Shown here one piece after another: positions 21,690 through 38,187 of a stretch of 64,000 bases of DNA. The translations under genes and the position numbers were made by a program. The notes beneath the pieces were generated by a model. That model worked only from the letters and a program-made list of their open reading frames with translations. It did not search any database and was not told the origin of the DNA. Source of the DNA: Microbacterium sp. zg-B96 (GTDB lineage Bacteria > Actinomycetota > Actinomycetes > Actinomycetales > Microbacteriaceae); assembly GCF_030246865.1 (NCBI RefSeq), contig NZ_CP126738.1, positions 3,162,001-3,226,000 on the forward strand, read 5' to 3'. Numbering within the stretch: the stretch's first letter is position 1; each line of letters starts with the position of its first letter.

Positions 21690-21822
21690 GGGTGTCCTCA
21701 GTTCAATCGTCAGCGGTGACCGCGGCTATCGCCGGGATCAGGTCGGCAACGTCTTGCCCGAGTCGGACGGTCCGCATGGGTCGTCGTCACACCGGAGCAT
21801 TTGCCACTCACCGAACGACACC

Positions 21823-21836
21823 GTACAGTACCGTAC
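21823..21836. promoter_or_regulatory. GTAC-type operator, site A
   Basis: GTACAGTACCGTAC, three GTAC units at 5-base spacing, in the 175-base gap between the divergent VOC operon (start 21689) and the FMN reductase gene (start 21865). The internal TACAGT also fits an actinobacterial -10 hexamer for the rightward gene, so a bound repressor would block it. Confidence 0.65.
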
Positions 21837-21864
21837 GCACCTAGATCCACGATCGGAGATCACT

Positions 21865-22500
21865 ATGCCTGAACTGCTCGTCATCATCGCCAGCACCAGA
21901 CCAGGGCGCGTCGGGGGCGCCATCGGCGACTGGGCCGCCCAGGGCGCCCGCGAGCACGGCGGCTTCAACGTCACGGTCGCGGACCTGGCGCAACTCGACC
22001 TGCCCATGCTGGATGAGCCGAATCATCCGCGCATGGGGCAGTATCTGCGCGATCACACGAAGGAGTGGAGCCGACTCGTGGCCTCCGCCGACGCGTTCCT
22101 GTTCGTGACCCCGGAGTACAACTACGGGCCACCGGCGAGCCTGCTCAACGCGATCTCCTATCTTTTCTGGGAGTGGGCGTACAAGCCGGTCGGATTCGTC
22201 AGCTACGGCGGGATCGCAGCCGGCCTGCGGGGTGTCCAGGTGCTCAAGCAGATCGTCACGACACTGCGCATGGTGCCCATCGGCGACAACGTCTGCATCC
22301 CCTTCGTCGCTCCCCTTGTGAAGGACGGCGTGTTCAACCCGACTCCGATCGTCGCCGACACCCTGCCGTTCCACCTCGACGAGGTGCTGCGCTGGACGGA
22401 GGCGCTGCTCCCCCTGCAGGCGCAGGTGCCCGAGCGACGCATGGAGCTGCCGCCCGGCGCTCCGAAGCCGGGTCAGATTCCCGCACCCGTCGGCGTCTGA
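21865..22500 (+). CDS. NADPH-dependent FMN reductase (flavodoxin-like)
   Basis: A 211-residue protein of the FMN_red family. The start MPELLVIIASTRPGRVG is the FMN-phosphate loop, and TPEYNYGPPASLLNAISYL near residue 80 is the second family hallmark. ATG 21865 is the first sensible start, preceded by CGGAG at 8 bases. Such enzymes supply reduced FMN to two-component monooxygenases or reduce quinones. It is the only plus-strand gene amid minus-strand operons and shares the GTAC-type promoter region. Confidence 0.87.
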   Translation: MPELLVIIASTRPGRVGGAIGDWAAQGAREHGGFNVTVADLAQLDLPMLDEPNHPRMGQYLRDHTKEWSRLVASADAFLFVTPEYNYGPPASLLNAISYLFWEWAYKPVGFVSYGGIAAGLRGVQVLKQIVTTLRMVPIGDNVCIPFVAPLVKDGVFNPTPIVADTLPFHLDEVLRWTEALLPLQAQVPERRMELPPGAPKPGQIPAPVGV

Positions 22501-22510
22501 ACGGATCCCA

Positions 22511-22554
22511 CGGGGCCTCGCCTTCGACGCTCAGCGCTCGAAGGCGGGGCCCCG
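22511..22554. terminator. Bidirectional terminator between FMN reductase and FAH 2
   Basis: A 17-bp stem (22511-22527 with 22538-22554, one G-T wobble) with a 10-base loop between convergent genes. The right arm overlaps the last codons of the FAH gene. It can serve both directions. Confidence 0.65.
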
Positions 22555-23403
22555 CGGTGCGCGCTCAGGCCGAAATGTGTTCCGCATCTCTCCGATGCCC
22601 TCTACCCACGTGGTGAGCACCTCGCCGGGCTGAAGGAACCGCTTGGGCTCGCGCGCGTTGCCGACACCACCGGGCGTGCCGGTGAAGATGATGTCACCCG
22701 GGGAGAGCTTCAGGACGCCGGACAAGTGCTCGATGAGCGTCGGGATGGAGAAGATCAGATTCCGGGTGCGCCCGTCCTGCATCACCTCACCGTCGATCGC
22801 ACACCCGAAGCCGAGGTCATCGGGGTTGTCGAATTCGTCGACGCTGACCAACTCTGGCCCCATCGGGCTGAAGCCGGGGAACGACTTCCCGAGACTGAAC
22901 TGCGGGGGATGCGCACCGAGTTGCAAGATCCGCTCGGACAGATCCTGTCCGATCGTGAGCCCGGCGACGTACCGCCACGCATCGGCGGCGCTCACGTTGC
23001 GGGCCGCTGCGCCGATCACGACGACGACCTCCGCCTCCCAATCGGTGTTGCCGCCGTCTGGCAGCACGACCTCGGCGTAGGGCCCGATGACACTGGACGG
23101 GAACTTGGTGAACACCGCCGGCACCGGCGACACGCCCACCGGGCTCTCGTCGACGTGCGACTGATAGTTGAGGCCGATGGCGAAGACCTGCGCCGGCCGA
23201 GGTGTCGGCGCGCCCCAGACGGCGTCGGCGGAGACGTCGACAGCATGGCCGGTGGCATCCTCGGTCCAGGCGGTGAACTCCGCCCACCGCTCGTAGAGGG
23301 CCTGGATGTCCGCCGGGAAGCGGCCGCCGCTGCTGCGTTCGATGTCGAGCCACCCGTCGTCGGTCTTCAGTACGGCGCGGGAGTCGAGATTGGCGATGCG
23401 CAT
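22531..23403 (-). CDS. Fumarylacetoacetate hydrolase-family protein 2
   Basis: A 290-residue paralogue of the FAH protein at 20,148; both begin MRIANL and share architecture, so they probably arose by duplication. Metal ligands appear in DWEAEVVVVIG and GQDLSERILQ, with PGDIIFTGTPGGVG. It lies 25 bases downstream of the extradiol dioxygenase gene on the same strand, so it likely acts on that ring-cleavage product or a derivative. The exact reaction (hydrolase, decarboxylase or hydratase) is open. Confidence 0.84.
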   Translation of the reverse strand: MRIANLDSRAVLKTDDGWLDIERSSGGRFPADIQALYERWAEFTAWTEDATGHAVDVSADAVWGAPTPRPAQVFAIGLNYQSHVDESPVGVSPVPAVFTKFPSSVIGPYAEVVLPDGGNTDWEAEVVVVIGAAARNVSAADAWRYVAGLTIGQDLSERILQLGAHPPQFSLGKSFPGFSPMGPELVSVDEFDNPDDLGFGCAIDGEVMQDGRTRNLIFSIPTLIEHLSGVLKLSPGDIIFTGTPGGVGNAREPKRFLQPGEVLTTWVEGIGEMRNTFRPERAPRGPAFER

Positions 23404-23428
23404 GCGGGTCTTCCTTGTCGGGGGGTGA

Positions 23429-24304
23429 TCAGCGGTCGAACAGCGGGCAGCCGGCGGTGGTCATGCGAACGGGCATGTTGCCGTCCCACTGGTTCAGCCA
23501 GTACTGATCCTCCGGGTCCCAGACGATCTCGGGGCGCTCCTTGTCGTAGATACGCTCGAGATCGGTGTAGAGCTCGATGATCGCGCCGTTGGGCTCTTCG
23601 TAGTAGGCCGCGATGTTATGGCCGGCGCCGTGGCGCACCGGGCCCCACACGAGGCGGGAGCCCGCACGGGCGAGGCGATCGCCCAGGCGGCCGATGTCGG
23701 CGATCGACTGTGTCTCCCAGGCGTGGTGGTGCAGTCCGCTCCAGGTGCTCTCGATGAGAGCGATCCCGTGGTGATCGGGGTTGCAGCGCAGGAAGAACCC
23801 CGCAGACACACCGATCCGGTCGGAGACACGGAAGTCGAAGACGTCGACCAGAAACTTCGCGAAGGCGACAGTGTGCTGCGTGCGGACGGTGATATGGCCG
23901 AGACGGTCGGGGCCGAACCCGCCGGCGCGGACAGCCCAGCGGGTGGGGCCCAGATGCACGTGGAACGTGAAGCCCTCGGGCCCCACGAACGCGAACCCTG
24001 CCTCGATGTAGTCCTCATACGGCTGATCGGCGACGACCCGGTAGCCGGCCCGGTCGACCTTGGCTCGGATGGCGTGGAGCTCGTCGAGGGTGGGTGCGAT
24101 GAGACCGAAGTGGTCGGCACCATCGATATCGGAGACCGTGTAGACCAGGTCGCGCGTGCCCGTGCCGGAACCGAAGTACGCCTTGGTCCCCGTGATCTCC
24201 ACGGGAGTGAGGCCGAGGATGTTCTCCGCGTTCTCGATTGAGGCGCGCAAATCGCGCGTCCCCAGCGAGACGTAGCCGATCTCGGAAATCGATCCGATGG
24301 TCAT
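23429..24304 (-). CDS. Two-module extradiol (catechol-type) dioxygenase
   Basis: A 291-residue type I extradiol dioxygenase related to BphC/HsaC. Start is the ATG of MTIGSISEIG preceded by AGGACC. The two VOC modules cover residues ~5-130 and ~140-265. Iron ligands of the second module can be placed: His in LGHITVR, His in GLHHHAWET, Glu in AIIELYTDL, with Tyr in the NIAAYYEEP active-site segment. It should cleave a catechol next to one hydroxyl. Operon with FAH 2; a TTCCG-N5-CGGAA palindrome lies 71 bases upstream. Confidence 0.88.
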   Translation of the reverse strand: MTIGSISEIGYVSLGTRDLRASIENAENILGLTPVEITGTKAYFGSGTGTRDLVYTVSDIDGADHFGLIAPTLDELHAIRAKVDRAGYRVVADQPYEDYIEAGFAFVGPEGFTFHVHLGPTRWAVRAGGFGPDRLGHITVRTQHTVAFAKFLVDVFDFRVSDRIGVSAGFFLRCNPDHHGIALIESTWSGLHHHAWETQSIADIGRLGDRLARAGSRLVWGPVRHGAGHNIAAYYEEPNGAIIELYTDLERIYDKERPEIVWDPEDQYWLNQWDGNMPVRMTTAGCPLFDR

Positions 24305-24365
24305 GGTGCCGGTCCTCCCGCTGTTGTGAGCCGAAGTCAACGTAGCGAGCGGCGGACGGGAGGGC

Positions 24366-24398
24366 GATGACGGATTCCGGTATCCGGAATCCGTCATC
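24366..24398. promoter_or_regulatory. 33-bp perfect inverted repeat containing TTCCG-N5-CGGAA, site 1
   Basis: 15-bp arms (GATGACGGATTCCGG and its complement) flank TAT. The inner part TTCCG-GTATC-CGGAA (24375-24389) matches two other sites. It lies 8 bases after the iclR stop and 62 bases before the extradiol dioxygenase start, both on the minus strand, so it could be terminator and operator at once. No T-run follows. Confidence 0.6.
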
Positions 24399-24405
24399 CG
24401 ATGTC

Positions 24406-25116
24406 CTATCCCTCGGCGGCCAGCGCCGCCGTTATGCGGCGAGCCGTGACGAGTACCGAGGGCGCCTGCACGCGGGCGGCCCGGTCGCCGTCGACGGTGA
24501 GGACCAGGGCACTGTCGACCTCGCCTCTGGTGCGGATTGCGGCGGCCAGAGTCACACGCCGCCCGTCCAGAGGGTCCGCACGCCGGACCACGCGGCCCGC
24601 GCGCGCGTCACGGATCGCGGCGTCGACGTCGGCCGCCTCTTCCGGCCCTGCCGCGCGGCGGAGCTCCGCCACGCTGTGATCGGAGCGCGCGGCGAGGATG
24701 GCGACCCCCGCGCTCGTACGGTGCAGGGGCACGCCCTCCGGGAGGCTCCGCCAGTCGGCGCGGGTGTGGGTCAGCCCGCTCAAGCGTTCGACCACGCGCA
24801 AGCGCTCGCCATCCAAGAGGACGAGGTCCACCGTCCCTCTGGTGACCTCGTGCAGATCGTGCAGGAACCTCCCCGCGACAAAACGGGTCCGCTCCGTCCG
24901 TGCATGCCTGCGACCAAGCACCCACGTGCGCGTACCGATCATCAACCCGCCACCCTCGCCGCGTTCGATGAGCTGTTCCGCCAGAAGCTGGGCGCACAAC
25001 CGGTGCACTGTGGTCAGCGGCAGCCCGGTGCGGGCACTCAGATCCGTCAGCATCACCGGCGCTCCGGCGGTCGCCAGCTCGTCCATGATCTGAACGCTGC
25101 GTTCGATGACCGACAT
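24406..25116 (-). CDS. IclR-family regulator
   Basis: A 236-residue IclR protein, start ATG 25116 (MSVIERSVQIMDEL) with GAGG upstream. N-terminal winged HTH (residues ~15-65, TDLSARTGLPLTTVHRLCAQL) and a C-terminal effector domain; the family core VTLAAAIRTRGEVDSALVLTV is recognisable but diverged. It follows the GntR gene by 28 bases, same strand. TTCCG-N5-CGGAA palindromes lie around both regulator genes and fit the short symmetric sites bound by IclR dimers, so this protein is a good candidate for them (inference). Confidence 0.85.
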   Translation of the reverse strand: MSVIERSVQIMDELATAGAPVMLTDLSARTGLPLTTVHRLCAQLLAEQLIERGEGGGLMIGTRTWVLGRRHARTERTRFVAGRFLHDLHEVTRGTVDLVLLDGERLRVVERLSGLTHTRADWRSLPEGVPLHRTSAGVAILAARSDHSVAELRRAAGPEEAADVDAAIRDARAGRVVRRADPLDGRRVTLAAAIRTRGEVDSALVLTVDGDRAARVQAPSVLVTARRITAALAAEG

Positions 25117-25144
25117 CAGCGCACCCTCGGCACCCTGGCCGCCC

Positions 25145-25828
25145 TCATGGCCTGTCGTCCGGCCACACGGAGCCGATGACGGCATCCCTCGTGCCGGCCA
25201 AGTGCGTGTGGAGTAGATCTCTCGCCTCGTCGCCCCGCCCAGCGACGGCGAGCTCCATCAGACGCCGGTGCTCGCCCGCGACCTCGACGCGACGCTCGGG
25301 CGTCGACGCGGAGTCGGACAGCTGACGGTAGATCTCGGCTTCATCCCGCAGGATCGCCGCCAGCGCGGTCAGGCGCGCGTTGTGCGCATCGGCGCAGAGC
25401 GCCTCGTGGAAGGCCGTGTGCGCGGCCCGCCAGTCCTCCTGCGTCCCGGGGCGATTCGAGACGCGCTCCACCGCGGCAAGGGCGGAGTAGCTCTCCCGGA
25501 CCCGCTGCACCCACCCGGAGTCGCCGCGCTCCACCGACAGCCGCACGGCAGCGCCTTCGACGATTTGACGCAACTCGGTGAGTTCGGCGAGCTCTGCGCG
25601 GGACGCCTGCGCAACGCGGAACTGGAAGTCGCTGGACTCGATGACGAGGCGCTGATCGGCGAGGCGCGTCAGCGCGTCGCGAGTGGTCGTCATCGCGACA
25701 TCGAGCTGCTCGGAGAGCTCGGCCAGAGCGATTTCACTACCGGGAGCCAGCCGCCCGCTGACGATCGCTGTGCGGATGACGGCGACGACCTCCGCGACCG
25801 CCCCCTCGCCGGTGCCGAGAGACCTCAT
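25145..25828 (-). CDS. GntR-family (FadR/FCD-type) regulator
   Basis: A 227-residue GntR protein: winged HTH at residues ~10-75 (SGRLAPGSEIALAELSEQLDV, RDALTRLADQRLV), then an all-helical FCD effector domain with the conserved FHEALCADAHN metal/effector region. FCD members usually sense small carboxylates. It precedes the iclR gene in one transcript. FadR-type sites often contain GT-N-AC half-sites, so the GTAC motifs in this island are a possible target, but nothing in the sequence proves this. Confidence 0.86.
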   Translation of the reverse strand: MRSLGTGEGAVAEVVAVIRTAIVSGRLAPGSEIALAELSEQLDVAMTTTRDALTRLADQRLVIESSDFQFRVAQASRAELAELTELRQIVEGAAVRLSVERGDSGWVQRVRESYSALAAVERVSNRPGTQEDWRAAHTAFHEALCADAHNARLTALAAILRDEAEIYRQLSDSASTPERRVEVAGEHRRLMELAVAGRGDEARDLLHTHLAGTRDAVIGSVWPDDRP

Positions 25829-25859
25829 CGGATCATCCTAGCGAGGGAACCGGGGTGAA

Positions 25860-25874
25860 TTCCGCTATTCGGAA
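25860..25874. promoter_or_regulatory. TTCCG-N5-CGGAA operator, site 2
   Basis: TTCCG-CTATT-CGGAA, a perfect 5-5-5 inverted repeat, 31 bases upstream of the gntR start and in the 119-base gap behind the monooxygenase gene. Suggests feedback control of the gntR-iclR pair. Confidence 0.6.
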
Positions 25875-25947
25875 GCGCGTGCGTCTCCCAGCGGCGGTGA
25901 CCCCCCGCGCCGACGAGGCGGCCGGGAGCCGGCAGCGCGGCCCGCCG

Positions 25948-27222
25948 TCACTTGCCCGGCGCCTTGTTCTGCAGGCCGGCAGCGAACATGTCGAACGGCG
26001 GCTGGCCGAGCAGCTGGCGCCCGGAGATCTCGGCGAGCGACTCGAGGCGCATCGCGCCATGGGACAGGATCACCGCAGCGTCGCGGAGGTAGCGCTGGAT
26101 CGGGTTGGACAGCGCGTATGCCGAAGATCCGATGATGCGGGCCATGCTCTGAATCGCGTCGTGGCACTGCTGGCCGACGTAGGCGAGTTCCACGCTTGCT
26201 TGCGACTCCTCGGGTCCGCTGAAGTCCGTGCCGGCAACCGCGTGCGCATCGATCAGGTCGGCGTATTTCACGAGCATGGTCTCGGCGATCTCGATCGCGG
26301 CGCGTGCTTTGGCTGCCGTCACCTGTGATGTCGCCATCTCGGCGACCGACGCGTAGGGCGGGCTGAACGGCTTCTTTCCAGTCTGCTTCACGAAGGCGTC
26401 GAAGGATCCTCTGGCCAGGCCGGCCACGATCCCGATCGTGATGATCGAGACCGTGAGCATTGAGGCCCGCATCTTCGCCTGGTAGGCCAGACCCCCGTAT
26501 CGCTGGTGGGCGGAGTCCATATGCCGGGGAAGGTCGGCCATGTCCACGAATCGGTGGTCGGGCACGAACACCTCATCGACGGCGCGCATGCTGTTGCTGT
26601 CGGACGCTGACATGCCCGCGACCGCCCAGTCATCGAGGCGCTCGAGCTGCCCGGGGTCGAACATGACGAGACCGTGTCCCTCCCGCTCACCGTCCACCCA
26701 GTGCATGCCGCCGAAGATCCGGGCAGCGCTGTGGTTGCCGCTGACGAAGGTCCATTTGCCCGTGACCATCCAGCCGCCCTCCACCCGCCGCCCCTCACCG
26801 GTGACAGCCGCAAACGTGGAGCCGCCTGCTGCGATCGGCCCCTTCCAGGTGTCCACTTCGCGGTACAGGTCGTCGACCAACTCCTCGGGGAAGGTGGAGA
26901 TCATGCGGGCACCGCCGGAAACCATGAACACCCAACCGGCGGCGGCGTCGGCGCGACCGAGTTCCATCGCGATCTCGGCGACGTCACGGGCGCCGAGGGC
27001 GAGCCCGCCGTACTCGATGGGCACCACCGCGCGCGTGAGGCCGGTGTCGGCGAGAGCCTCAATGAGGTCGTCCGGCAGCTTTCTGGCTTGCTCGGCAGCC
27101 TGCGCGGCGGCCTGGATCCGCGGACGAAGCTCCGCGACCGCGGCGGCGATGCGCCGGCCTTCGTCGGTGAGGAATCGATCAGTGCCTTGGGCGGGTGGGG
27201 TGTGGTCCACGGTGTCGAACAC
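25948..27222 (-). CDS. Group D flavin monooxygenase 1 (acyl-CoA dehydrogenase fold)
   Basis: A 424-residue protein with Acyl-CoA_dh_N, middle and Acyl-CoA_dh_2-type C-terminal regions, as in HsaA, DszC, HpaB-like C2 and related two-component monooxygenases. These use FMNH2 or FADH2 from a reductase to hydroxylate phenols or heteroatoms. The start is a GTG at 27222 (VFDTVDHTP) with a GA-rich sequence upstream; no ATG fits. C-terminal NPIQRYLRDAAVILSHGAMR is typical of this branch. The extradiol dioxygenase upstream of which it lies could use its catechol product. Confidence 0.83.
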   Translation of the reverse strand: MFDTVDHTPPAQGTDRFLTDEGRRIAAAVAELRPRIQAAAQAAEQARKLPDDLIEALADTGLTRAVVPIEYGGLALGARDVAEIAMELGRADAAAGWVFMVSGGARMISTFPEELVDDLYREVDTWKGPIAAGGSTFAAVTGEGRRVEGGWMVTGKWTFVSGNHSAARIFGGMHWVDGEREGHGLVMFDPGQLERLDDWAVAGMSASDSNSMRAVDEVFVPDHRFVDMADLPRHMDSAHQRYGGLAYQAKMRASMLTVSIITIGIVAGLARGSFDAFVKQTGKKPFSPPYASVAEMATSQVTAAKARAAIEIAETMLVKYADLIDAHAVAGTDFSGPEESQASVELAYVGQQCHDAIQSMARIIGSSAYALSNPIQRYLRDAAVILSHGAMRLESLAEISGRQLLGQPPFDMFAAGLQNKAPGK

Positions 27223-27294
27223 GGGCGACGCTCTCTCTCGTTGCGGGCGACTCGACAGCGCTGTCGCAGCCGGGAAGGCGCGTCGCCGTACTGA

Positions 27295-27306
27295 ACTGTA
27301 CAGTAC
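27295..27306. promoter_or_regulatory. GTAC-type operator, site B
   Basis: ACTGTACAGTAC followed by CGGTA, in the 220-base divergent region between the monooxygenase (start 27222) and the ABM gene (start 27443). Contains a self-complementary ACTGTACAGT. Confidence 0.62.
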
Positions 27307-27341
27307 CGGTAATGTGACGGCAATCAGTGCCTGCCGACGGC

Positions 27342-27356
27342 TTCCGATTATCGGAA
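27342..27356. promoter_or_regulatory. TTCCG-N5-CGGAA operator, site 3
   Basis: TTCCG-ATTAT-CGGAA, extended to the perfect CTTCCGAT-t-ATCGGAAG (27341-27357). It lies 35 bases from GTAC site B, so this promoter region may answer to two regulators. Confidence 0.62.
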
Positions 27357-27442
27357 GTAACCCCTGGTCCCCGTCACCGGCTCGTATTGGATGGGCGAGG
27401 GGTCCCGCCGCCGGGACCGCCGAATGAGAAGGAGAACGAGAC

Positions 27443-27736
27443 ATGGCATTCATCTGCAGCGCGACGTGGACCGCCAAGGACGGCGAGGCCGAGACCGTGA
27501 GCGCGGCCCTGGAACAGCTTGCGCCGGCCAGCCGCACGGAGGCGGGCAATCTCTACTACCAGCCGTACCAGGACCCGGCGGAGCCGAACGTGTTCCGCAT
27601 CTTCGAGGTCTATACCGACGAGGCGGCCTTCAAGGCGCACGCCGAGTACGACCACTTCAAGACGTGGGCCCTCGGGCAGGCGATCCCCGCCCTGGAGACG
27701 CGCCAGCGGGAGTTCTACGAGACCCTGGATTACTGA
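27443..27736 (+). CDS. ABM-domain quinol monooxygenase-like protein
   Basis: A 97-residue single-domain antibiotic-biosynthesis-monooxygenase (YgiN-like) protein. The ferredoxin-like fold is indicated by ARDED-type spacing: AFICSATWTAKDGEAETVSAAL, NLYYQPYQDPAEPNVFRIFEVYTDEAAFKAH. Members oxidise quinols or polyphenols without cofactor. AGAAGGAGAACGAGAC precedes the ATG, a strong ribosome site. The FAH 3 gene follows after 3 bases. Confidence 0.82.
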   Translation: MAFICSATWTAKDGEAETVSAALEQLAPASRTEAGNLYYQPYQDPAEPNVFRIFEVYTDEAAFKAHAEYDHFKTWALGQAIPALETRQREFYETLDY

Positions 27737-27739
27737 GCG

Positions 27740-28684
27740 ATGCGCGTTGCCCGGTATCGCGAGGGCGGCGCGATCCGCGTCGCCCTCGTCGAAGCAGACA
27801 CGCTCCGACCGCTTCCGGTCGGCTCGGACGTGCTCGACATCCTGAATCTTCCCGCCGACGCCCGCGAGGAGCTGTCTGCCCAGGCTGGCGAGGCGGTCCC
27901 GCTCGACCGAGCCGCCCTCGTTGCCCCCATCGACCCGCCTGCCATGCGGGACTTCGTCGCTTTCGAGAGGCACGTCGAAGGTGTGAACGCCACGGTCGGC
28001 GGCGGTGCGGCGGGAGTGCCGGACGCCTGGTACGAGGCGCCGGTGTTCCTGTTCATGAACCCGCACGCGCTCACCGCGCCGTTCGGCGACATCCCCATGC
28101 CGCCATTTACTACGGCCTTGGACTTCGAGCTCGAGGTGGCCGCGATCGTCGGCACCCGCGTGCGCGACGCTGCACTGGACGAGGCGGAATCGCTCATCGT
28201 CGGCTACGCCGTTTTCAACGACTGGTCGGCCCGAGACGTCCAGCGCCGCGAGATGCAGGTCGGCCTCGGCCCGAGCAAGGGCAAGGATTTCGCCCACACC
28301 CTGGGTCCGTGGATCACGACCCCGGACGAACTGGAGCAATGGCGTACCGCGGATCGCTACGACTTGACCATGCAGGTGAGCGTCAACGGCCAGTTGGTCG
28401 GCGGCGACAGCCTCGCCACCCTGGCCTGGAGCTTCCCCGAGCTGCTCGTGCACGCCTCGCGCGACGCCTGGGTGGGTGCCGGTGATGTGCTCGCTACCGG
28501 AACGGTCGGAGGCGGCGCCCTCGCCGAGTGGTGGAGTCGGCGAGGCGAGCAGACGCCGCCACCGCTCCAGGTGGGCGACGTCGTGACGATGACCGTTGCG
28601 GGTCTCGGCACGATCGAGAACCGGATCGTCACGACGGCCAGTCCGGGCCATCGGGCACCGGCAGCGCGGCGGATGGGTGCCTAG
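27740..28684 (+). CDS. Fumarylacetoacetate hydrolase-family protein 3
   Basis: A 314-residue FAH-family protein from a different branch than the two minus-strand copies: it has a longer N terminus and resembles FAA1-like hydrolases. Metal ligands are the glutamates of DFELEVAAIVG near residue 132 and Asp in NDWSARDVQRRE. It is coupled to the ABM gene (3-base gap), suggesting hydrolysis of a product of quinol oxidation (inference). It converges on the QorB-like gene with 7 bases between. Confidence 0.84.
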   Translation: MRVARYREGGAIRVALVEADTLRPLPVGSDVLDILNLPADAREELSAQAGEAVPLDRAALVAPIDPPAMRDFVAFERHVEGVNATVGGGAAGVPDAWYEAPVFLFMNPHALTAPFGDIPMPPFTTALDFELEVAAIVGTRVRDAALDEAESLIVGYAVFNDWSARDVQRREMQVGLGPSKGKDFAHTLGPWITTPDELEQWRTADRYDLTMQVSVNGQLVGGDSLATLAWSFPELLVHASRDAWVGAGDVLATGTVGGGALAEWWSRRGEQTPPPLQVGDVVTMTVAGLGTIENRIVTTASPGHRAPAARRMGA

Positions 28685-28691
28685 CGCCCCG

Positions 28692-29555: not shown

Positions 29556-29590
29556 TCGATCTCCCTCCGTCTGCTGACAACACAAGAACA

Positions 29591-29604
29591 GTACCGTACA
29601 GTAC
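29591..29604. promoter_or_regulatory. GTAC-type operator, site C
   Basis: GTACCGTACAGTAC, three GTAC units at 5-base spacing, between the divergent QorB-like gene (29555) and monooxygenase 2 (29678). TACAGT inside it fits a -10 for the rightward gene. Confidence 0.65.
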
Positions 29605-29677
29605 GTTTAGTCCCACATCGGAACGCCGCCAAAGCGACCGACTCGTGCGAGGACGCGCGAATGAGAAGCGAGGAATC

Positions 29678-30838: not shown

Positions 30839-30855
30839 GCCGTCGTCTCTGCAGA

Positions 30856-30898
30856 GTGAGGAGGGCCACCCGGAACGACTCCGGGTGGCCCTCCTCAC
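30856..30898. terminator. Strong bidirectional terminator
   Basis: A perfect 19-bp stem (30856-30874 with 30880-30898) and 5-base loop between the convergent monooxygenase 2 and propeller lipoprotein 1 genes. Confidence 0.8.
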
Positions 30899-30917
30899 CG
30901 CAGATGAAGCAGCGGGG

Positions 30918-31799
30918 TCACCCCTGCCAGACGATGAGCGCGCCCGGGCCCTGAGCCCCCGTCAAGAAGTCGGGGTCGGCGTCACTCCCGTCGAGGTTCG
31001 CGCGGCCGACGGTGCCGTCGCTGCTGGTCCAGTAGAGGTACGAGTCGGTCACCGCGACGCCCGCGGGCGTGTTCGCGCCGGAGATGATGTCCGGCTCCGG
31101 CTCGCTGCCATCCAGGTTCGCCCGGCCGACCGTGCCGTCGCTGCGGCTGGTCCAGTACAGGTGTTCATCCGTCACCGTCAGGCCCGCCGGCGTGACGACA
31201 CCGGTCATGAAAGCCTGGTCCGGGTCGGAGCCGTCGAGGTTGGATCGGCCGATGGTGTTGTCGCCGTTGTTGGCCCAGTAGACGAAGTCGTCGTCGACGG
31301 CGATCGCGTTGGGAAAGTCAGCGCCACTGAGGAAGGCGTCGTTCACATCGGAGCCGTCGAGGCTCGATCGTCCGATCGTGTTGTGGCTGGCGTTGCTCCA
31401 GTAGAGGTAGTCACCGTGAATCGCCAGGCCGGCGGGCGAACTCAGCTCGGCGAGGAACTGCTGGTCGACCTCCGAGCCGTCGAGCGTCGCGCGGCCGATC
31501 GTGTTCTGATCTCCGTTGCTCCAGTAGAGGTATTCGCCGTCTGTGGCCACGCCGATCGGGAAGCTCGCCCCGGTGATGAACTCGGGGTTCGACTCACTGC
31601 CGTCCAGGTTGGCGGCCCCGATGGAGTTGATCCCCTCGTCCCGGTTGGGGACACCGACCTCGGTGCCGCTGTTCGTCCAGAAGATCTGGCCGCCTCCGCC
31701 GCCGGCGCTGCACGATGCCAGCACGGCGGCGAGACCGACAGCCAGCCCGGCGGCGACGATGCGCCGCATCCTTCGGTGCTCGTGAAGGGAAAACCCCAT
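30918..31799 (-). CDS. Six-bladed beta-propeller lipoprotein 1
   Basis: A 293-residue secreted lipoprotein: signal peptide with lipobox LASC (Cys30), then six repeats of about 40 residues of the form YWSN..NTIGRA.LDGS...FLSGA..P.GIAV. These match the YWTD/LDLR class B propeller repeat. Start ATG 31799 follows AAGGAG. Anchored outside the membrane, such a propeller would bind a ligand or partner; no catalytic motif is visible. Two further copies lie at 34,444 and 35,393. Transcribed divergently from the heme peroxidase, across GTAC sites D and E. Confidence 0.85.
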   Translation of the reverse strand: MGFSLHEHRRMRRIVAAGLAVGLAAVLASCSAGGGGGQIFWTNSGTEVGVPNRDEGINSIGAANLDGSESNPEFITGASFPIGVATDGEYLYWSNGDQNTIGRATLDGSEVDQQFLAELSSPAGLAIHGDYLYWSNASHNTIGRSSLDGSDVNDAFLSGADFPNAIAVDDDFVYWANNGDNTIGRSNLDGSDPDQAFMTGVVTPAGLTVTDEHLYWTSRSDGTVGRANLDGSEPEPDIISGANTPAGVAVTDSYLYWTSSDGTVGRANLDGSDADPDFLTGAQGPGALIVWQG

Positions 31800-31887
31800 G
31801 CTCTTGCTCCTTCGTCTCACTTGACCGGACGCCGGCACGCCCTCGTGCGGACAGAACCCGGCGACGCACTCCTTCGTGCTCGCGTGA

Positions 31888-31905
31888 ACTGTACAGTACG
31901 GTACT
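31888..31905. promoter_or_regulatory. GTAC-type operator, site D
   Basis: ACTGTACAGTACGGTACT. On the minus strand TACTGT within it fits a -10 hexamer for the propeller lipoprotein gene. Confidence 0.68.
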
Positions 31906-31946
31906 AAAATCTCCAGGAACCTCAATATCGCATTTCTGGGATCTGT

Positions 31947-31966
31947 ACTATACGGTACCGTACAGT
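31947..31966. promoter_or_regulatory. GTAC-type operator, site E
   Basis: ACTATACGGTACCGTACAGT, a 20-bp palindrome with one mismatched pair around a perfect TACGGTACCGTA. The best symmetric example of the motif, 37 bases before the peroxidase start. TACTAT at 31946-31951 fits its -10. Confidence 0.72.
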
Positions 31967-32002
31967 GCTCGATTGGCGGGCGAAGGGTCAAGGAGGATCC
32001 GA

Positions 32003-33802
32003 ATGACTTCTGGAGAGCGGGCAGACGCTGCGCCGGAGCAGAACGCACAATCGGGTGCAGGCTCCTCCCGCCGCAACTTCCTGAAGGTGCTCGGCGTGAC
32101 CGGGGCGGGCCTGGTCGCCGGCGGGGCCGGCATCGCCGCCGCCATCTCGGGGCAGGGCGGCGGCACCCCCGTACCGGCGCCGACGCCCTCGCAGACCCTC
32201 GCGGCGTCAGCATCGAAGGGGATCCCGCAGAACGCCGGAAAATTCGGCATCATGTTCCCCTCACTGCGCACCGAACCGTTCGCACACCCTGACGACATCG
32301 TTCGGCAGGCGCTGATGGAGGTCGGCAAGCGCGGCGGCATCATGGACGCCATGGACGACCTCACCGTCGCCCCCGAGCGCCTGCTCTTCGACCCCGCCGT
32401 GAACGGCACTCCCACGGCGACGGACACCTTCGGACGCAACCCTTTCAACCCGACGCAGACGGTCGGGACGACATTCTTCGGCCAGTTCATCACGCACGAC
32501 ATCACGTTCGACGCGACCTCGGTGCTGGGGGCTCCGGCCAACCCGCTGCTCACGCCCAACGAGCGGACACCGTCACTCGACCTCGACGCGGTCTTCGGCG
32601 GTGGCCCCGGCACATCCCGCAGGTTGTACGAGTCCGATGGCAAGGTCAAGATCGGCACCGGCGGCGTCTACGAGACAGTGCCTTTCACCTCCAAGTCCGA
32701 CGGCTCCTACGAGACCCTCGCCCCGGACGGCCGCAACACCCAGACGTTGACGCTCGAGGGCCTCATGGCGGCATACATGATGGCGTACAACCGCGTTCTG
32801 GACGACCTGTCGGAGATCGACCTCAAGCCCTACTCCACCGCACGCGACGCAGACCTCACCAACGTGAACGAACGTCACCTGGTGGCCAAGGAGGTCATCC
32901 TCTGGCACTACCACTGGCTGATCATCAACGAGTACCTGCCGCAGGTCGTCGGGCAGGCCGTCGTCGACGATGTGCTCGCGAACGGCAACCGCTATTACAA
33001 GCCGCCGGCGGGAAACGCCTTCATGCCGATCGAGTTCAACTCGGCCTCGTTCAAGTTCGGTCACAGCCAGGCCGACGCCGCCTACCGAGCCAACTTCTCC
33101 AGCGGTACAGGCGCCAGCGCCGACCCGGCGAAGGCCCCCTTCTACGGGCTCGGATTCAATGCAGCCATTCCGACCACGCGCTTCGACAACAACACCTTCG
33201 ACCGTGACGACATGCTCGGCGGGTATCCGGCACCGCGGCGGTACCTCGGGTGGCAGTCGTTCTTCGACTTCGGCGACGGTCAGGTCGTGCACAACCGGCG
33301 CATCACGCCCAAGATCACGAGCGTGCTGTTCACGCTGCCCGGTCCGGCCATCCCCGGAGGGCTGGAGACCGAGTTCAGCATGCTGACGCAGCGTGACCTC
33401 CTGCGCGTACTCACGTGGGCCCTGCCTCCCGGGCAGGCCGTCGCGCGCGAGATGGGGGTCGATGCCCTCACCAAGGCCGACCTCGAGGAGATCGGCAGCG
33501 TCTACGAGCCCTTCGCGACCAAGACCCCCATGTGGTACTACGAGATGGCCGAGGCCAAGGTGGCCGCCGGCGGTCTGACCCTCGGTCCCGTCGGCGCACG
33601 CATCGTGACCGAGACACTCATCGGCATCATGCGCGACGACGGCCGCTGCTACCTCAATCAGCAGCCCGGTTTCACCCCGTTCCTCGGTGCGGACCTGGAG
33701 TACGGCCCGAACCGGGTGGCCACCATGGGCGGCAGTCACGAGTACACCCACGCCAACTTCCTCTACTACGCCGGGGTCGTCGAGCCCGGTCTGTACCGCT
33801 GA
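32003..33802 (+). CDS. Tat-secreted heme peroxidase (animal-peroxidase family)
   Basis: A 599-residue exported protein. The twin-arginine signal is SSRRNFLKV (Arg23-Arg24) followed by a hydrophobic stretch and a Pro-rich linker. Two animal heme-peroxidase landmarks are visible: distal FFGQFITHD (His165), matching the GQ-x-x-DHD loop of myeloperoxidase-type enzymes, and proximal FKFGHS (His354). It should oxidise phenols or other donors with H2O2 outside the membrane, folded and heme-loaded before export. ATG 32003 has AGGAGG upstream. Followed 9 bases later by the PF03640 lipoprotein gene and two propeller lipoproteins, apparently one operon. Confidence 0.85.
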   Translation: MTSGERADAAPEQNAQSGAGSSRRNFLKVLGVTGAGLVAGGAGIAAAISGQGGGTPVPAPTPSQTLAASASKGIPQNAGKFGIMFPSLRTEPFAHPDDIVRQALMEVGKRGGIMDAMDDLTVAPERLLFDPAVNGTPTATDTFGRNPFNPTQTVGTTFFGQFITHDITFDATSVLGAPANPLLTPNERTPSLDLDAVFGGGPGTSRRLYESDGKVKIGTGGVYETVPFTSKSDGSYETLAPDGRNTQTLTLEGLMAAYMMAYNRVLDDLSEIDLKPYSTARDADLTNVNERHLVAKEVILWHYHWLIINEYLPQVVGQAVVDDVLANGNRYYKPPAGNAFMPIEFNSASFKFGHSQADAAYRANFSSGTGASADPAKAPFYGLGFNAAIPTTRFDNNTFDRDDMLGGYPAPRRYLGWQSFFDFGDGQVVHNRRITPKITSVLFTLPGPAIPGGLETEFSMLTQRDLLRVLTWALPPGQAVAREMGVDALTKADLEEIGSVYEPFATKTPMWYYEMAEAKVAAGGLTLGPVGARIVTETLIGIMRDDGRCYLNQQPGFTPFLGADLEYGPNRVATMGGSHEYTHANFLYYAGVVEPGLYR

Positions 33803-33811
33803 CAGGAGAGC

Positions 33812-34447
33812 ATGACGATGAGAATCCACCGCCTGATAGTGCCCGTGCTGCTGGCCTCCGGCCTCGTTCTGGGCACCGCCGCGTGCAGCAGCCCGGCGGC
33901 GCCCGAGAACGAGTCCACCGCCCCCGTTGAGACACCGGCGGGGACACCGCCCGAGGGCGTCGAACCCCCCGAGGGCGTCGAACCCCCCGACGGCGCCGAC
34001 GCCCCGCAGGGCGCCCCGGCGGCGCCGCCGACTGCGCCACCCGCGGACGCCACCGTGTTGCAGACCGCGACGGTCGCGCTCAAGGATGGCAGCGAGGCCG
34101 AGGTGCTGGTGGACTTCGAGGGGAATGTCGTATACCTGCTCACGGAGGACAGCACCGAGGATCCCGCGTGCAACGCTCTGGACTGCCTGGGTTTCTGGCC
34201 GCCTGTGCTGACCGGCGCGCCCGAGCTCAAGCTCGGGGAGGGCGTCACCGCGACCGTCGGGGTCTGGAATCACGACAACCTCGACCACCTGACCCTCGAC
34301 GACCGTCCGCTGTACACCTTCGGCGGCGACAACAACCCCGGTATCGCGGGCGGTCATGGTCTGGCCAGCAACTTCGGCGGTGGAGTGTGGGCGGCCATCG
34401 GTGCCGACGGGACGCCCCTGTCGACCGAGGGCATCGCTGCGCCGTGA
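33812..34447 (+). CDS. PF03640-type secreted-repeat lipoprotein
   Basis: A 211-residue lipoprotein: signal peptide with lipobox GTAAC (Cys25), then a Pro/Glu/Gly-rich low-complexity linker that includes an 18-bp tandem repeat (33947-34000, PPEGVE type), then two copies of the COG4315/PF03640 motif. Markers are DFEGNVVYLLTEDS, ACNALDCLGFWPP and DDRPLYTFGGD, with two Cys that may form a disulfide. Function of the family is unknown. It sits between the peroxidase and a propeller gene, whose GTG overlaps its TGA. An ATG 6 bases downstream is an alternative start. Confidence 0.82.
   Translation: MTMRIHRLIVPVLLASGLVLGTAACSSPAAPENESTAPVETPAGTPPEGVEPPEGVEPPDGADAPQGAPAAPPTAPPADATVLQTATVALKDGSEAEVLVDFEGNVVYLLTEDSTEDPACNALDCLGFWPPVLTGAPELKLGEGVTATVGVWNHDNLDHLTLDDRPLYTFGGDNNPGIAGGHGLASNFGGGVWAAIGADGTPLSTEGIAAP
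33947..34000 (+). repeat. 18-bp tandem repeat, three units
   Basis: Three in-phase units of 18 bases, the third diverged, encode the PPEGVE-PPEGVE-PPDGAD linker of the PF03640 lipoprotein. The linker length is likely to vary between strains. Confidence 0.75.
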
Positions 34448-35349
34448 CCACCCCGCGCACCCTCACCCGCGCAGCCGCTGTCGGCGCCTCCACCCTGGTC
34501 ATCCTGCTGCTCACCGCGTGCGGTGCGGCCGCGGGGGGCGGCGCCGACGATGGGCCGACGCACCTGTACTGGGCCAACAACGGGATCCACGAGAATGAGC
34601 CCCTGTCGGCGACCGCCCACACGATCGGGGTGGCGGCCATCGACGGCACCGAGACGAACCAGGAGCTGATCAGCGACGTCACGTTCCCGACGGGGGTCGC
34701 CGTCCACGGCGACTACGTCTACTGGACCGACATCGAACAGGGCGGCATCGGACGCGCCAAGCTGGACGGCAGCGTGGCCGACCCGGAGTTCATCACCGAC
34801 GGCGTCCGCCTGCCCAACGGCATCGCCGTGGACGGCGAGCATGTGTACTGGTCGAACAACGGCACGAACTCGATCGGCCGGGCGAACATCGACGGCTCAG
34901 AGGTCGACGGCTTCTTCATCAAGGGGATTCAGGTGCCCAACGGCATCGCCGTGGATGGCGACTACATCTACTGGACCAACTGGGTAAACGCGATCGGGCG
35001 GGCCAACCTCGATGGCAGCGGAATCGACGAGGAGTTCATCGTGGATGCCCGCACCCAGAGCGAACAGATCCTGTCACCCATCCCCATCGGGCTCGCCGTC
35101 GACGGTGAATTCATCTACTGGTCGAATCAGCAGGAGAACACCATCGGTCGGGCGAACATCGACGGAACCGAGCCGGACGTCGCTTTCATCACCGGTGCGA
35201 CGTTCCCCGCTGGCATCGCCCTCGACGATGAACACATCTACTGGGCCAACAACAACGACACGATCGGCCGGGCGAAGCTCGATGGTTCACAGGCCAACCA
35301 GAGCTTCATCGAGGGCGCAGACGCCCCAGCCGGCCTCGCCGTCCGGTGA
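34444..35349 (+). CDS. Six-bladed beta-propeller lipoprotein 2
   Basis: A 301-residue lipoprotein starting at GTG 34444, overlapping the previous stop as GTGA. Lipobox LLTAC (Cys26), then six YW(T/S/A)(N/D) repeats of about 40-50 residues, each with NTIGRA-x-(L/I)DG-(S/T) and P-x-G(I/L)AVD. A longer fourth repeat holds an insert (TQSEQILSPIP). It is a paralogue of the copies at 30,918 and 35,393; the insert is shared with the latter (GSQSGAVLSPLP), so these two are the closer pair. Confidence 0.85.
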   Translation: MTTPRTLTRAAAVGASTLVILLLTACGAAAGGGADDGPTHLYWANNGIHENEPLSATAHTIGVAAIDGTETNQELISDVTFPTGVAVHGDYVYWTDIEQGGIGRAKLDGSVADPEFITDGVRLPNGIAVDGEHVYWSNNGTNSIGRANIDGSEVDGFFIKGIQVPNGIAVDGDYIYWTNWVNAIGRANLDGSGIDEEFIVDARTQSEQILSPIPIGLAVDGEFIYWSNQQENTIGRANIDGTEPDVAFITGATFPAGIALDDEHIYWANNNDTIGRAKLDGSQANQSFIEGADAPAGLAVR

Positions 35350-35392
35350 GGCCGGCGAGCGATGCTGCAGGAGACGGGATGAAGGAGCGTAA

Positions 35393-36397
35393 ATGAGATC
35401 TTCCACGGGGACCACCCACCTGGCGAGGCGGCGATCACTCATGATCGGCGCCTCGGCGCTGTTGATCGCGCTCCTCTCGGGATGCGGTGGCGCCGCCGCG
35501 GACCCCGGCAGAACCGCTGCGCCGACGGCCACCGACAGCACGCCGACCGCCACGCCCGCCCCCGGCCCCGGCCCCGAAAGCGAGCCGCACGAGCCGACCC
35601 ACATCTACTGGGCGAACAACGGCATCGCCAAGGGGGACGCGCTGATGGCCACAGCTGAGACCATCGGCTGGGCGAACATCGACGGGAGCGGCGCCGACCA
35701 GAGTCTGATCGACGGCATCGACTATCCCAGTGGTATGGCCGCTCAGGGGGAGTACATCTACTGGACCGACATCTTCAGCAACACGATCGGGCGGGCCAAG
35801 CTGGACGGCACGGAGGCGAACCACTCCTTCATCGCCGAGGGGGTCTACTTCGCCGTCGGTGTCGCCGTCGACGATGAGTACATCTATTGGGCCAACAACG
35901 GCACGCTCTCAGTCGGTCGCGCCAGGTTGGACGGTTCGCGGATCGACGAGGAATTCATGAAGTTCTCGGCCGGCATCCGGATGCCGAATGCGATTGCAGT
36001 CGACGACCGTCACATCTACTGGTCGAACGTCGCGAGTCAGATCGGGCGGGCGAACATCGACGGCACCGAGATAGACGAGAACTTCATGATCAACACCGGC
36101 AGCCAAAGCGGCGCCGTACTCTCACCCCTACCGGTGGGCCTGACAGTGGACGACAACTACATCTACTGGTCGAACATGCAGCAGAACACCATCAGCCGGG
36201 CGAACCTGGACGGCACGGAGGGGGACTACAGCTTCATCACCGGGGCTGACTTCCCGGGCGGCGTCGCCGTCGACGGACGGTACATCTACTGGTCCAACAA
36301 CAACGGCACCATCGGCCGCGCGCACCTCGACGGCACCGAGGTTAATCAGAGCTTCATCACCGGCGCCGACGGGCCCGGGGGTCTCATCGTCTGGTGA
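35393..36397 (+). CDS. Six-bladed beta-propeller lipoprotein 3
   Basis: A 334-residue lipoprotein: signal with lipobox LLSGC (Cys31), a Thr/Pro-rich linker, and six YWxN/YWTD propeller repeats like its two paralogues, again with a long fourth repeat. It is 43 bases downstream of lipoprotein 2 and ends the peroxidase operon at a strong terminator. Duplication within the operon is the likely origin; what it binds cannot be read. Confidence 0.85.
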   Translation: MRSSTGTTHLARRRSLMIGASALLIALLSGCGGAAADPGRTAAPTATDSTPTATPAPGPGPESEPHEPTHIYWANNGIAKGDALMATAETIGWANIDGSGADQSLIDGIDYPSGMAAQGEYIYWTDIFSNTIGRAKLDGTEANHSFIAEGVYFAVGVAVDDEYIYWANNGTLSVGRARLDGSRIDEEFMKFSAGIRMPNAIAVDDRHIYWSNVASQIGRANIDGTEIDENFMINTGSQSGAVLSPLPVGLTVDDNYIYWSNMQQNTISRANLDGTEGDYSFITGADFPGGVAVDGRYIYWSNNNGTIGRAHLDGTEVNQSFITGADGPGGLIVW

Positions 36398-36422
36398 CCT
36401 GAAGGCCCGGCCCCTCACGCGA

Positions 36423-36468
36423 CGAAGGGGGCGGTGGTCCGGATGACTCCGGACCACCGCCCCCTTCG
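36423..36468. terminator. Strong bidirectional terminator
   Basis: A perfect 20-bp stem (36423-36442 with 36449-36468), 6-base loop, between the convergent propeller 3 and flavin reductase genes. Confidence 0.82.
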
Positions 36469-36479
36469 TTGTCGGCCGG

Positions 36480-37058
36480 TCAGACCGTCAGCGCGGAGCT
36501 CCCGTCCAGCTGGTGCCATGTGCGGTTGTGATAGACCAGCGGCGGCTCATCAGCCGCCTGCCCGACGTGCGTGTCCAGCACGTGCACGACGACGACGGTC
36601 GAGCTCCCGGCATCCAAGCGGTCGATGATCCGACCGCGCAGTAGGACTGCGGCATCCAGCAGGTAGGGCTCGCCGCCGGGCAGTCGGCCCCACGTGGAGA
36701 CGTCGGCGAAGCGGTCGATCCCGCTCGTCGCGAAGCGTTTGGCGGCCATATGCTGCCTTGCCCCCAGAAGATGGACGACGACGGTGTCTGCAGCCACGAT
36801 GGTGGGCGTACTTGAGGACAGTGTCGACAGGGAGAAGATCAGCAGCGGCGGTTCAGCACTGATCGAGAAGACGCTCGTTGCGGTCAGACCTGCTGGGCCC
36901 TGGCCCGCGTCGGCGGTGATCACCGCGACACCGGCGGGGTGATTGCGGAAAGCCAGCTTGAACTCCTCGGGCGACACGCCGCCCGGCAGCGCAACGGTCT
37001 CACCGCCAGGGCGAGGGGATCCGCTGACGCTGGCGGCGTGCGCGTTCGCAGTGCTCAT
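36480..37058 (-). CDS. Flavin reductase (HpaC-type)
   Basis: A 192-residue flavin_Reduct-domain protein (residues ~30-185, FRNHPAGVAVITAD, GLTATSVFSISAEPPLLIFSL). It should give FMNH2/FADH2 from NAD(P)H to the group D monooxygenases of this island. ATG 37058 (MSTANAH) has GGGAG about 12 bases upstream. Downstream partner of the double SnoaL gene, 43 bases apart. Confidence 0.87.
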   Translation of the reverse strand: MSTANAHAASVSGSPRPGGETVALPGGVSPEEFKLAFRNHPAGVAVITADAGQGPAGLTATSVFSISAEPPLLIFSLSTLSSSTPTIVAADTVVVHLLGARQHMAAKRFATSGIDRFADVSTWGRLPGGEPYLLDAAVLLRGRIIDRLDAGSSTVVVVHVLDTHVGQAADEPPLVYHNRTWHQLDGSSALTV

Positions 37059-37101
37059 ATCGATTTCTTGCTCCCTCAGCACGCGCCCGTCAGACATGGC
37101 C

Positions 37102-37971
37102 TCAGCCATGCTCAGGGCGTGCGTGCTTGTCGATACCGCTCCAGTGCTCCGCGAGCTTTCCGTCGCGCACGCGGTAGGCGTCGTACGCGAAGTAGTTCCA
37201 CGTGCCGCCAGAGCCATCGCGCAGAGGCTGCGGCAGACCGGCCGCGATGACGACCATGTCCCCCTCGGCGTGCAGGACGTCGGGGGCGGGCGCGACCGGC
37301 GGCGCCCCGTCCTCGGCGGGGGCGGGCGGGGGCGGAGCCTGAGCTGCCAGGCTCTCGACGAACGCCTCGAGCCCGCGCCGGCCCTGCGGCATGTGCTTCA
37401 CGTGCTGGAGGTAGTCGTCGGTGACGAAATCCTTCACCGCCTCCGCGTTCAGCGGACCGAAGACCTCCGCGTAGAAGCCCGCGACCAGCGCTTTGTTGGC
37501 CTCGAGGTCGGTGCCGCCGACGTGTTCCGGCCCGGTGGCTGGATTGCCGAGTGCCATTTCGGGGAGGAACTGCGGCCGCGCATAGCGGTGCTCGTTCGTC
37601 CACCGTTCGGCGATTTTGCCGTCCGTGATCCGGTACGTGTTGAAGCCGTAGTAGTCGTAGGCGGCACCCGCCTCATCCGGTTCGGCCATCGGCATGTAGA
37701 ACGCGATGGTCACCAGGTCACCCTCGGCGAGCACGAAGGCGGGCGGCAGCATCTTGACGTCGGCGGGGTCCAGCGGCGGATGGCCGGCGAAATCGCGCAA
37801 CAGGATCTGCTCGAATGCGTCGATTCCCACGAGATCGTCGGCACCGTGCAGCACGAAGTCCCGCGCGATGAAATGTTCGAGCGGGCGTACGTCGAACGCC
37901 GCGACGACGTCGCGGAAGTAGTCGAGCACGACCTGCTTGTTGGCCGCGAGCTGGTCCGCACTGTCGGTCAT
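37102..37971 (-). CDS. Tandem double SnoaL-like protein
   Basis: A 289-residue protein made of two SnoaL-like (NTF2-fold) domains, residues ~10-140 and ~155-285, separated by a short linker. Both repeat the pattern NKxxVxxFYxxV....F.......H....GxxxxE, and both end in YRxxDGKxAExW. Single-domain SnoaL proteins are dimers, so this may be an internal dimer. SnoaL folds do aldol cyclisation, hydroxylation or isomerisation. Start ATG 37971 after GGGGTGAAG. Divergent from the ABC binding-protein gene. Confidence 0.8.
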   Translation of the reverse strand: MTDSADQLAANKQVVLDYFRDVVAAFDVRPLEHFIARDFVLHGADDLVGIDAFEQILLRDFAGHPPLDPADVKMLPPAFVLAEGDLVTIAFYMPMAEPDEAGAAYDYYGFNTYRITDGKIAERWTNEHRYARPQFLPEMALGNPATGPEHVGGTDLEANKALVAGFYAEVFGPLNAEAVKDFVTDDYLQHVKHMPQGRRGLEAFVESLAAQAPPPPAPAEDGAPPVAPAPDVLHAEGDMVVIAAGLPQPLRDGSGGTWNYFAYDAYRVRDGKLAEHWSGIDKHARPEHG

Positions 37972-37987
37972 CTTCACCCCTTTGTAA

Positions 37988-38004
37988 ACTGTACGAAAGC
38001 GTAC
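37988..38004. promoter_or_regulatory. GTAC-type operator, site F
   Basis: ACTGTACG-aaag-CGTAC: perfect GTACG/CGTAC arms with a 4-base centre, 17 bases upstream of the double-SnoaL start. On the minus strand TACAGT fits a -10. Confidence 0.55.
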
Positions 38005-38107
38005 GCTATGCTCACGCAATCTCCTAGCAACGGAGTTGCACATAGATACGTGGTAAACCGCGGCCGAATTGACATTGGAAAAGCCTCCCACTGAGGAGAA
38101 CGATTCG

Positions 38108-38116
38108 GTACAGTAC
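38108..38116. promoter_or_regulatory. GTAC-type operator, site G
   Basis: GTACAGTAC, two units only, in the 216-base divergent region, 72 bases before the ABC binding-protein start. TACAGT fits a -10 for the long rightward operon. Confidence 0.5.
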
Positions 38117-38187
38117 ACTTGCGCTGCCGCCCGAACCAGAGTCGGATCGGGCACCGGCGGCCGCCATGACACCGTTTGGAGCAGACA

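Follow-up and report, generated by a model that had tools for sequence, protein, structure and literature searches.

Which protein reads the GTAC-rich repeats that recur between divergent genes of a catabolic island in Microbacterium sp. zg-B96 (G000; a single contig, completeness 100)? The window analyzed here is a stretch of 64,000 nucleotides (contig NZ_CP126738.1, positions 3,162,001 to 3,226,000 of the forward strand; coordinates below are window positions unless a locus is named), and seven repeat arrays, termed M1, accompany its island genes. Comparison with related genomes suggests that the arrays are probably operators of a TetR-family repressor, designated TetRx, whose gene seems to have been lost from this genome while the seven operators were kept.

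GTAC arrays in the divergent gaps of the island

The first-pass annotation of this DNA had listed seven GTAC sites, each in a divergent intergenic region. All seven are present and all lie in divergent gaps, but they share five regions rather than occupying seven. The arrays consist of GTAC-like tetramers with a 5-bp period, and at their common core lies GAACtGTACnGTACaGTWC, which is palindromic over 19 bp around a single central base; a palindrome with a central base and a length of about 15 to 19 bp is clearest in a relative (GAACTGTACCGTACAGTTT at L037:12142). Counted from the start of the best 19-mer, single arrays lie between VOC1 (-) and the FMN reductase (+) (21813 to 21836), between Mox1 (-) and ABM (+) (27288 to 27311), and between NmrA (-) and Mox2 (+) (29586 to 29609). 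The gap between LDLb1 (-) and the peroxidase (+) holds two (31886 to 31904, and 31945 to 31968 with five units), as does the gap between SnoaL (-) and SBP5 (+), where the array at 37986 to 38004, 15 bp before SnoaL, lacks an inner unit and that at 38098 to 38116 precedes SBP5. Several arrays contain two 19-bp palindromes 5 bp apart, such as those beginning at 31945 and 31950.

The five gaps make up 2.9% of 15384 to 47252, yet contain 19 of the 110 GTAC tetramers of that stretch. At up to two mismatches, ACNGTACNGTACNG matched the window 45 times, counting both strands and overlapping registers; shuffled sequence (n = 100) averaged 7.4 matches and never exceeded 15. Across the whole genome, GTACNGTACNGTAC at up to one mismatch was found in 10 places, all inside the island at 21823 to 31968, where they represent the five strong sites; the reversed-pattern control gave 4. 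At two mismatches this pattern became unspecific (36 matches, 43 in the control), and the arrays at 37986 and 38098 gained nothing. Eight genomes were scanned with the pattern at up to one mismatch, and the matches in G164 (2), G215 (1), and G080 (1) were at control level.

A matrix trained on 13 sites from four other genomes (the foreign matrix) scored the seven sites at 27.8, 27.4, 25.6, 24.6, 21.8, 20.3, and 16.4. The training sites were chosen through GTAC patterns and by eye, and so are independent of the letters of the window though not of the idea, and the matrix was made symmetric and therefore provides no test of the palindrome. In 60 stretches of the same genome (1.2 Mb, about 35% of its remainder) the foreign matrix reached a maximum of 13.8, below all seven sites; with the matrix trained on the window (below), this background contained seven places scoring at least 13, two at least 15, and none at least 17. 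Random 64-kb sequences of first order (n = 50) gave a mean maximum of 11.6 and a largest value of 17.2 with the foreign matrix. The weakest site, 37986, falls below both that value and a variant palindrome at 47993 (17.2); its score alone is not beyond chance, but a relative has a site of the same odd form in the orthologous gap.

That relative, G195, is probably Salinibacterium hongtaonis (100% protein match, P0007). Its island has another gene order and includes VOC1, FAH1, the ligase, the thiolase, Mox1 to Mox4, SDR, ALDH, flavin reductases, TetR11, Dpp, SBP5, SnoaL, NmrA, LDLb, the peroxidase, the FMN reductase, FAH2, VOC2, ABM, FAH3, IclR, and GntR; no FAD hydroxylase turned up in the G195 stretches fetched. 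Arrays occur there in the VOC1/Mox1 gap (L037:12142) and the NmrA/Mox2 gap (L038:13751, counterpart of 29586), twice in the LDLb1/peroxidase gap as in the window (L014:3106 and 3202), and twice in the SnoaL/SBP5 gap (L038:11463, counterpart of 38098, and L038:11569, with the same odd form as 37986). The first-pass annotation had proposed an operator and regulon, to be checked by a genome scan with a position matrix and by searching upstream of orthologous clusters. Both checks support the proposal: the seven sites outscore the 1.2 Mb of their own genome, where they are specific to the island, and arrays accompany orthologous promoters in a second genus.

The island is rare. At E ≤ 1e-80 the peroxidase was found in one of 295 genomes of the genus, namely the present one, in one of five genomes in the genus of G195, and, among 394 genomes of the class, in six besides its own (41 to 45% identical). 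GntR was found at E ≤ 1e-40 in three of 299 family genomes, the present one included. Plasmid records contained no close island, and a contig search with a GntR alignment profile returned two irrelevant loci.

Repression, which the first-pass annotation had proposed from -10-like hexamers inside the sites, is plausible and at this point suggestive only. A TACAGT -10 box with a plausible -35 element (8 to 9 of 12 positions matched) lies inside four of the seven window sites, including 21813 and 29586, and -10-like hexamers with a -35 lie inside four of 15 foreign sites, both counts resting on the sigma-70 consensus with no shuffle control. A consensus promoter scan of 21650 to 38250 found two promoter-like sites, both ending in an array, where 1.1 would be expected by chance.

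TetRx in relatives and the 3′ end of FAH2

Among 398 genomes of the family searched at E ≤ 1e-25, TetRx was found in four: G195, G036 (protein P0022 suggests Pseudolysinimonas yzui), G1331 (protein P0019 suggests a Herbiconiux sp.), and G205. All four carry arrays in the fetched TetRx region. In G195 the type protein (L037:13688-14386) directly follows Mox1, and in G036 its 60% ortholog (L039:9237-9929) sits between two arrays. Across 118.9 kb from seven loci of the four genomes, a matrix trained on the window found 18 sites scoring at least 13, and 11 at least 19; two of the 18 belong to the G195 TetR11 promoter (one of them the M3 palindrome discussed below), and another, L039:18349, scores 13.2. 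The same matrix found no site of at least 13 in eight other loci (135.1 kb), which include L041, fetched for a single one-mismatch match, and L040, the flank of a positive locus, and none in six 20-kb flanks.

Gene order behind the arrays is also similar. On the same strand as TetRx, an array is followed by Mox1-TetRx in G195, SBP-ABC-TetRx in G036, and Mox1-SnoaL-ABC-TetRx in G1331; a further array (score 22.1, L065:380) lies immediately before TetRx in G1331, and in G195 it is preceded by a weak GAACTGTACAG, which the window matrix scores at 10.4. By gene order rather than transcripts, TetRx is thus apparently autoregulated in the relatives. In G205, a tblastn search of 56 kb around the sites with GntR, IclR, TetR11, MarR, and TetRx found TetRx alone. 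The recognition helix VSKTTVYAHF is identical in 17 of 18 TetRx-type rows, comprising 13 of the 49 homologs listed and five gene copies. Given the linkage to arrays, the autoregulation-like gene order, its place as the sole regulator found in G205, and the shared helix, TetRx is the strongest candidate reader of the arrays. A tree of TetRx-type and G000 rows, with 3 of 20 inner branches starred and very long G000 branches, was unreliable and not used. G036 also encodes a TetRx paralog (44%; L039:343-1125) ahead of a TetR11-like gene, and a GTAC array was not found before it.

Neither the window nor the rest of G000 contains TetRx, and the sites here therefore have no TetRx gene linked to them. 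The only TetRx match in the window below E = 0.1 is the helix-turn-helix of TetR11, and plasmid records held no TetRx at E ≤ 1e-20. A G000 TetR at 1416509 was considered as an ortholog and rejected (30% identity and a different recognition helix). A putative relic of the TetRx 3′ end (PRGPAFER*) lies at 22531 to 22557 (-), where it forms the end of FAH2. This protein ends in GEMRNTFRPERAPRGPAFER*, and the 13 orthologs listed with 74 to 79% identity end at or two residues past FR; among 47 homologs listed, from the best 8000 candidates scored, the tail occurs in the window's own alone. The last 27 bases of FAH2 match the TetRx 3′ ends of G036, G195, and G1331 at 25, 24, and 23 positions, respectively, in frame with the stop codon, and 1.2 Mb of own background contained no place that matched one of these ends with six or fewer mismatches. 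GPAFER occurs at or near the end of 12 of the 18 closest TetRx proteins. From these likenesses, the tail is quite probably a deletion scar of a TetRx gene.

Several points weigh against TetRx operators and a lost repressor. The 398 genomes were sampled from a larger group, and the choice of genomes behind the link between arrays and TetRx was biased: G036 and G195 had been selected by searching for GntR, and the other two, G1331 and G205, by searching for TetRx, rather than through a motif search of all genomes. G205 TetRx is just 34 to 35% identical, two sites among the 13 used for foreign training do not exceed a score of 15, and one of the four G036 places at up to one mismatch lies outside the loci of the arrays (C2:72877). 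With the best of seven TetRx matches in G000 at 30% identity (E = 5e-9), no ortholog for the sites is encoded here; a plasmid could be missing from the assembly. The relic came to notice as a weak tblastn match (E = 12) among numerous others and was put to the test afterward, and the likeness of the tail to the TetRx end may be due to chance. The main caveat is that the tail is one arm of a strong hairpin (approximately 22508 to 22557, z -4.1) between convergent genes; a terminator-like hairpin is also seen by eye at the same junction in G195. Finally, the operator scores give no sign of decay.

The two hairpins and the intact operators favor an alternative in which the FAH2 tail is merely a terminator between convergent genes, TetRx never belonged to this copy of the island, and the sites answer to a regulator that is unlinked or encoded on a plasmid. 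We consider this unlikely; the 25 of 27 bases shared in frame with the G036 TetRx end, unmatched within six mismatches in 1.2 Mb, argue against it, as does the lack of the tail in all 13 listed orthologs. The undecayed operators are more readily explained by a substitute binder, or by a loss that is recent rather than old. We lean modestly toward a regulon caught shortly after the natural deletion of its repressor, with an eight-codon scar in a neighboring enzyme gene and all seven operators persisting.

The sites, their conservation, the linkage of TetRx to them elsewhere, its absence here, and the tail of FAH2 are direct observations, from which we infer binding, repression, ligand release, the deletion, and the present expression state as follows. 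The 19-bp palindrome, overlying or adjoining the -10 box of the catabolic promoters, would be occupied by a TetRx dimer until the dimer bound a pathway compound and came off the operator. In the relatives, TetRx would also control its own gene. Here, the TetRx gene would have been deleted except for its last eight codons, now fused to the FAH2 end, with the seven operators left in place. The island core is now probably derepressed or left to the remaining island regulators, and its promoters would be open unless TetR11 also binds the arrays. If this is correct, the pathway would be expressed constitutively, or its operators would now serve a resident TetR whose own site is related. The unusual aspect is that operators would outlive their repressor. 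An uncharacterized island of aromatic breakdown would gain a testable master switch, with a named protein of a relative to purify, and G195, which kept the repressor missing here, would complete a natural pair for following operator and promoter evolution after repressor loss. With its ligand identified, TetRx and its operator could further serve as candidate components of a biosensor.

TetR11, GntR, and IclR as possible alternative regulators

TetR11 (TetR_N/TetR_C_11; 47272 to 47919, -) could instead bind both its own palindrome and the M1 arrays and be their present-day regulator here. It is the sole TetR found in the island of the window, and TetR11-like genes also occur in the loci of G195, G036, and G1331. 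Between this gene (-) and an SDR (+) lies the M3 palindrome ATACGAAACGGTTTCGTTC (47993 to 48011), which has the 19-bp layout and 5-bp period of M1 and scores 17.2 with the foreign matrix; the G195 TetR11 promoter holds M3 (L038:1622, 17.6) and an M1-like site (L038:1566, 15.4). M3 adjoins TetR_C_11-like genes at four loci (47993 to 48011 of the window, L038:1622, L039:1842, and L064:3115), with its arms further apart in L039 and L064. However, its inner units are AAAC and GTTT where M1 has GTAC, no TetR11 homolog was found in 56 kb around the G205 sites, and the helix-turn-helix is nearly identical in G195, which also bears TetRx, giving no sign of a new specificity here. We rate the proposal as improbable; TetR11, whose own promoter carries a different palindrome, would be at most a cross-binder of M1.

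That GntR (25145) or IclR (24406) binds the arrays, as the first-pass annotation had ventured, we regard as very unlikely: both genes lie in the island on the same strand behind the array at 27288, and both islands that have the pair (those of the window and G195) also have arrays, and FadR-type GntR proteins typically recognize GT..AC half-sites, but homologs of neither were found at the fetched array loci of three genomes (G036-C1, G1331, and G205), and the loci of six GntR relatives with 32 to 46% identity (L015, which is the G036 locus, and L024 to L028, which are from more distant relatives) hold no array. GntR had been tried first as the M1 regulator and was dropped on the array-free loci of its relatives and the arrays that exist without it.

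A second palindrome, M2, fits these two proteins better. It occurs as TTCCGGTATCCGGAA upstream of VOC2-FAH2 (24375 to 24389, +; genome position 3186375), as TTCCGCTATTCGGAA upstream of GntR (25860 to 25874, +), and with one mismatch as TTCCGATAATCGGAA in the Mox1/ABM gap (27342 to 27356, -), adjoining the M1 array. The M2 sites of G195 are at L014:7371, L014:10168, and L037:14438; SDR and GntR each have one in front, and a third is in the VOC2/ABM gap. Exact copies of TTCCGnTATnCGGAA number two in G000, three in G195, and none in G036; all lie in the islands, one directly before GntR in each. At one mismatch there are two further places elsewhere in G000 and two in G195, and at two mismatches the pattern is unspecific. 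Palindromes of 15 bp are known as IclR operators. Since M2 accompanies GntR and IclR in both islands, TTCCGnTATnCGGAA is probably the better candidate operator for one or the other.

Island genes and known systems

The genes flanking the arrays form the predicted targets. Leftward of 21813 runs VOC1-FAH1-ligase-FAD hydroxylase-thiolase (15384 to 21689, -), in which the MhpA-like FAD hydroxylase and the acetoacetyl-CoA-synthetase-like (acetoacetate-CoA) ligase both exceed NCBIfam cut-offs; the ligase and thiolase, together with an FAA hydrolase and a VOC protein, suggest that ring cleavage yields acetoacetate. Rightward lies the FMN reductase (21865 to 22500, +), followed by FAH2 (FAA hydrolase family; 22531 to 23403, -) with its unusual C-terminal tail, the IclR-family regulator (24406 to 25119, -), and the GntR/FCD regulator (25145 to 25828, -). 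Mox1 (25948 to 27222, -), an acyl-CoA-dehydrogenase-fold flavin monooxygenase, lies upstream of GntR-IclR on the same strand. Further targets are ABM-FAH3 (27443 to 28684, +), the NmrA/NAD(P)H-binding protein (28692 to 29555, -), Mox2 (29678 to 30838, +), the LDL-receptor-b/Vgb-like protein 1 (30918 to 31799, -), the heme peroxidase with three secreted-type proteins (32003 to 36397, +), SnoaL with a flavin reductase (36480 to 37971, -), and the SBP5-SnoaL-Mox3-Mox4-SnoaL-Dpp transporter run (38188 to 47252, +). Mox1, Mox2, and Mox3 resemble HsaA/HPAH oxygenases below cut-off.

Within 30918 to 36397, three LDL-receptor-b/Vgb-like proteins flank the animal-type heme peroxidase, with a Tat-like signal SRRNFLK, and G195 has a comparable set. 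A MarR gene (14801 to 15292) adjoins the VOC1 run; close to the corresponding run of G1331 there is a 61% match (L065:11510-11929). Flavin reductases of about 400 residues at L039:8006-9226 and in the window (50716 to 51948) are 62% alike; the C-terminus of the former gives a match (E 2.8e-8) to PF01614, the effector domain of IclR proteins, making it a possible ligand-gated reductase, and the latter has the reductase domain only.

A TACTGTAC string in a lugdunin paper was rejected as an operator, being flank. A literature search limited to open-licence papers found no operator of a TetRx-type protein among the papers listed. FadR-type GntR proteins have the operator consensus TnGTnnnACnA, and M1 likewise places GT and AC elements within a palindrome; unlike FadR-type operators, M1 arrays occur at loci with no homolog of the island GntR. 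Two TetRx homologs, P0024 (58%) and P0043 (46%), are named as repressor of the mexJK operon, which we take to be MexL, and several Pseudomonas-type homologs carry PF14246 and are presumably AefR-like. Among solved structures, AefR (3cdl) is a weak match to TetRx (E 2.8e-8). TetR/AcrR repressors of the MexL and AefR types are thus among the nearest known systems, and across the rows compared the recognition helix is near-identical. In PMC6018408, TetR operators are described as palindromes with one central base, as is the M1 palindrome, and overlapping palindromes as bound by two TetR dimers. M1 arrays, with palindromes offset by 5 bp, are similar to the sites of QacR-type tandem dimers, but their second register scores lower, and the 5-bp-periodic matrix itself lifts neighboring scores. 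TetRx differs from mexJK-type repressors in that its gene is missing from the present genome and in being tied to a catabolic island with several operators rather than to an efflux pump.

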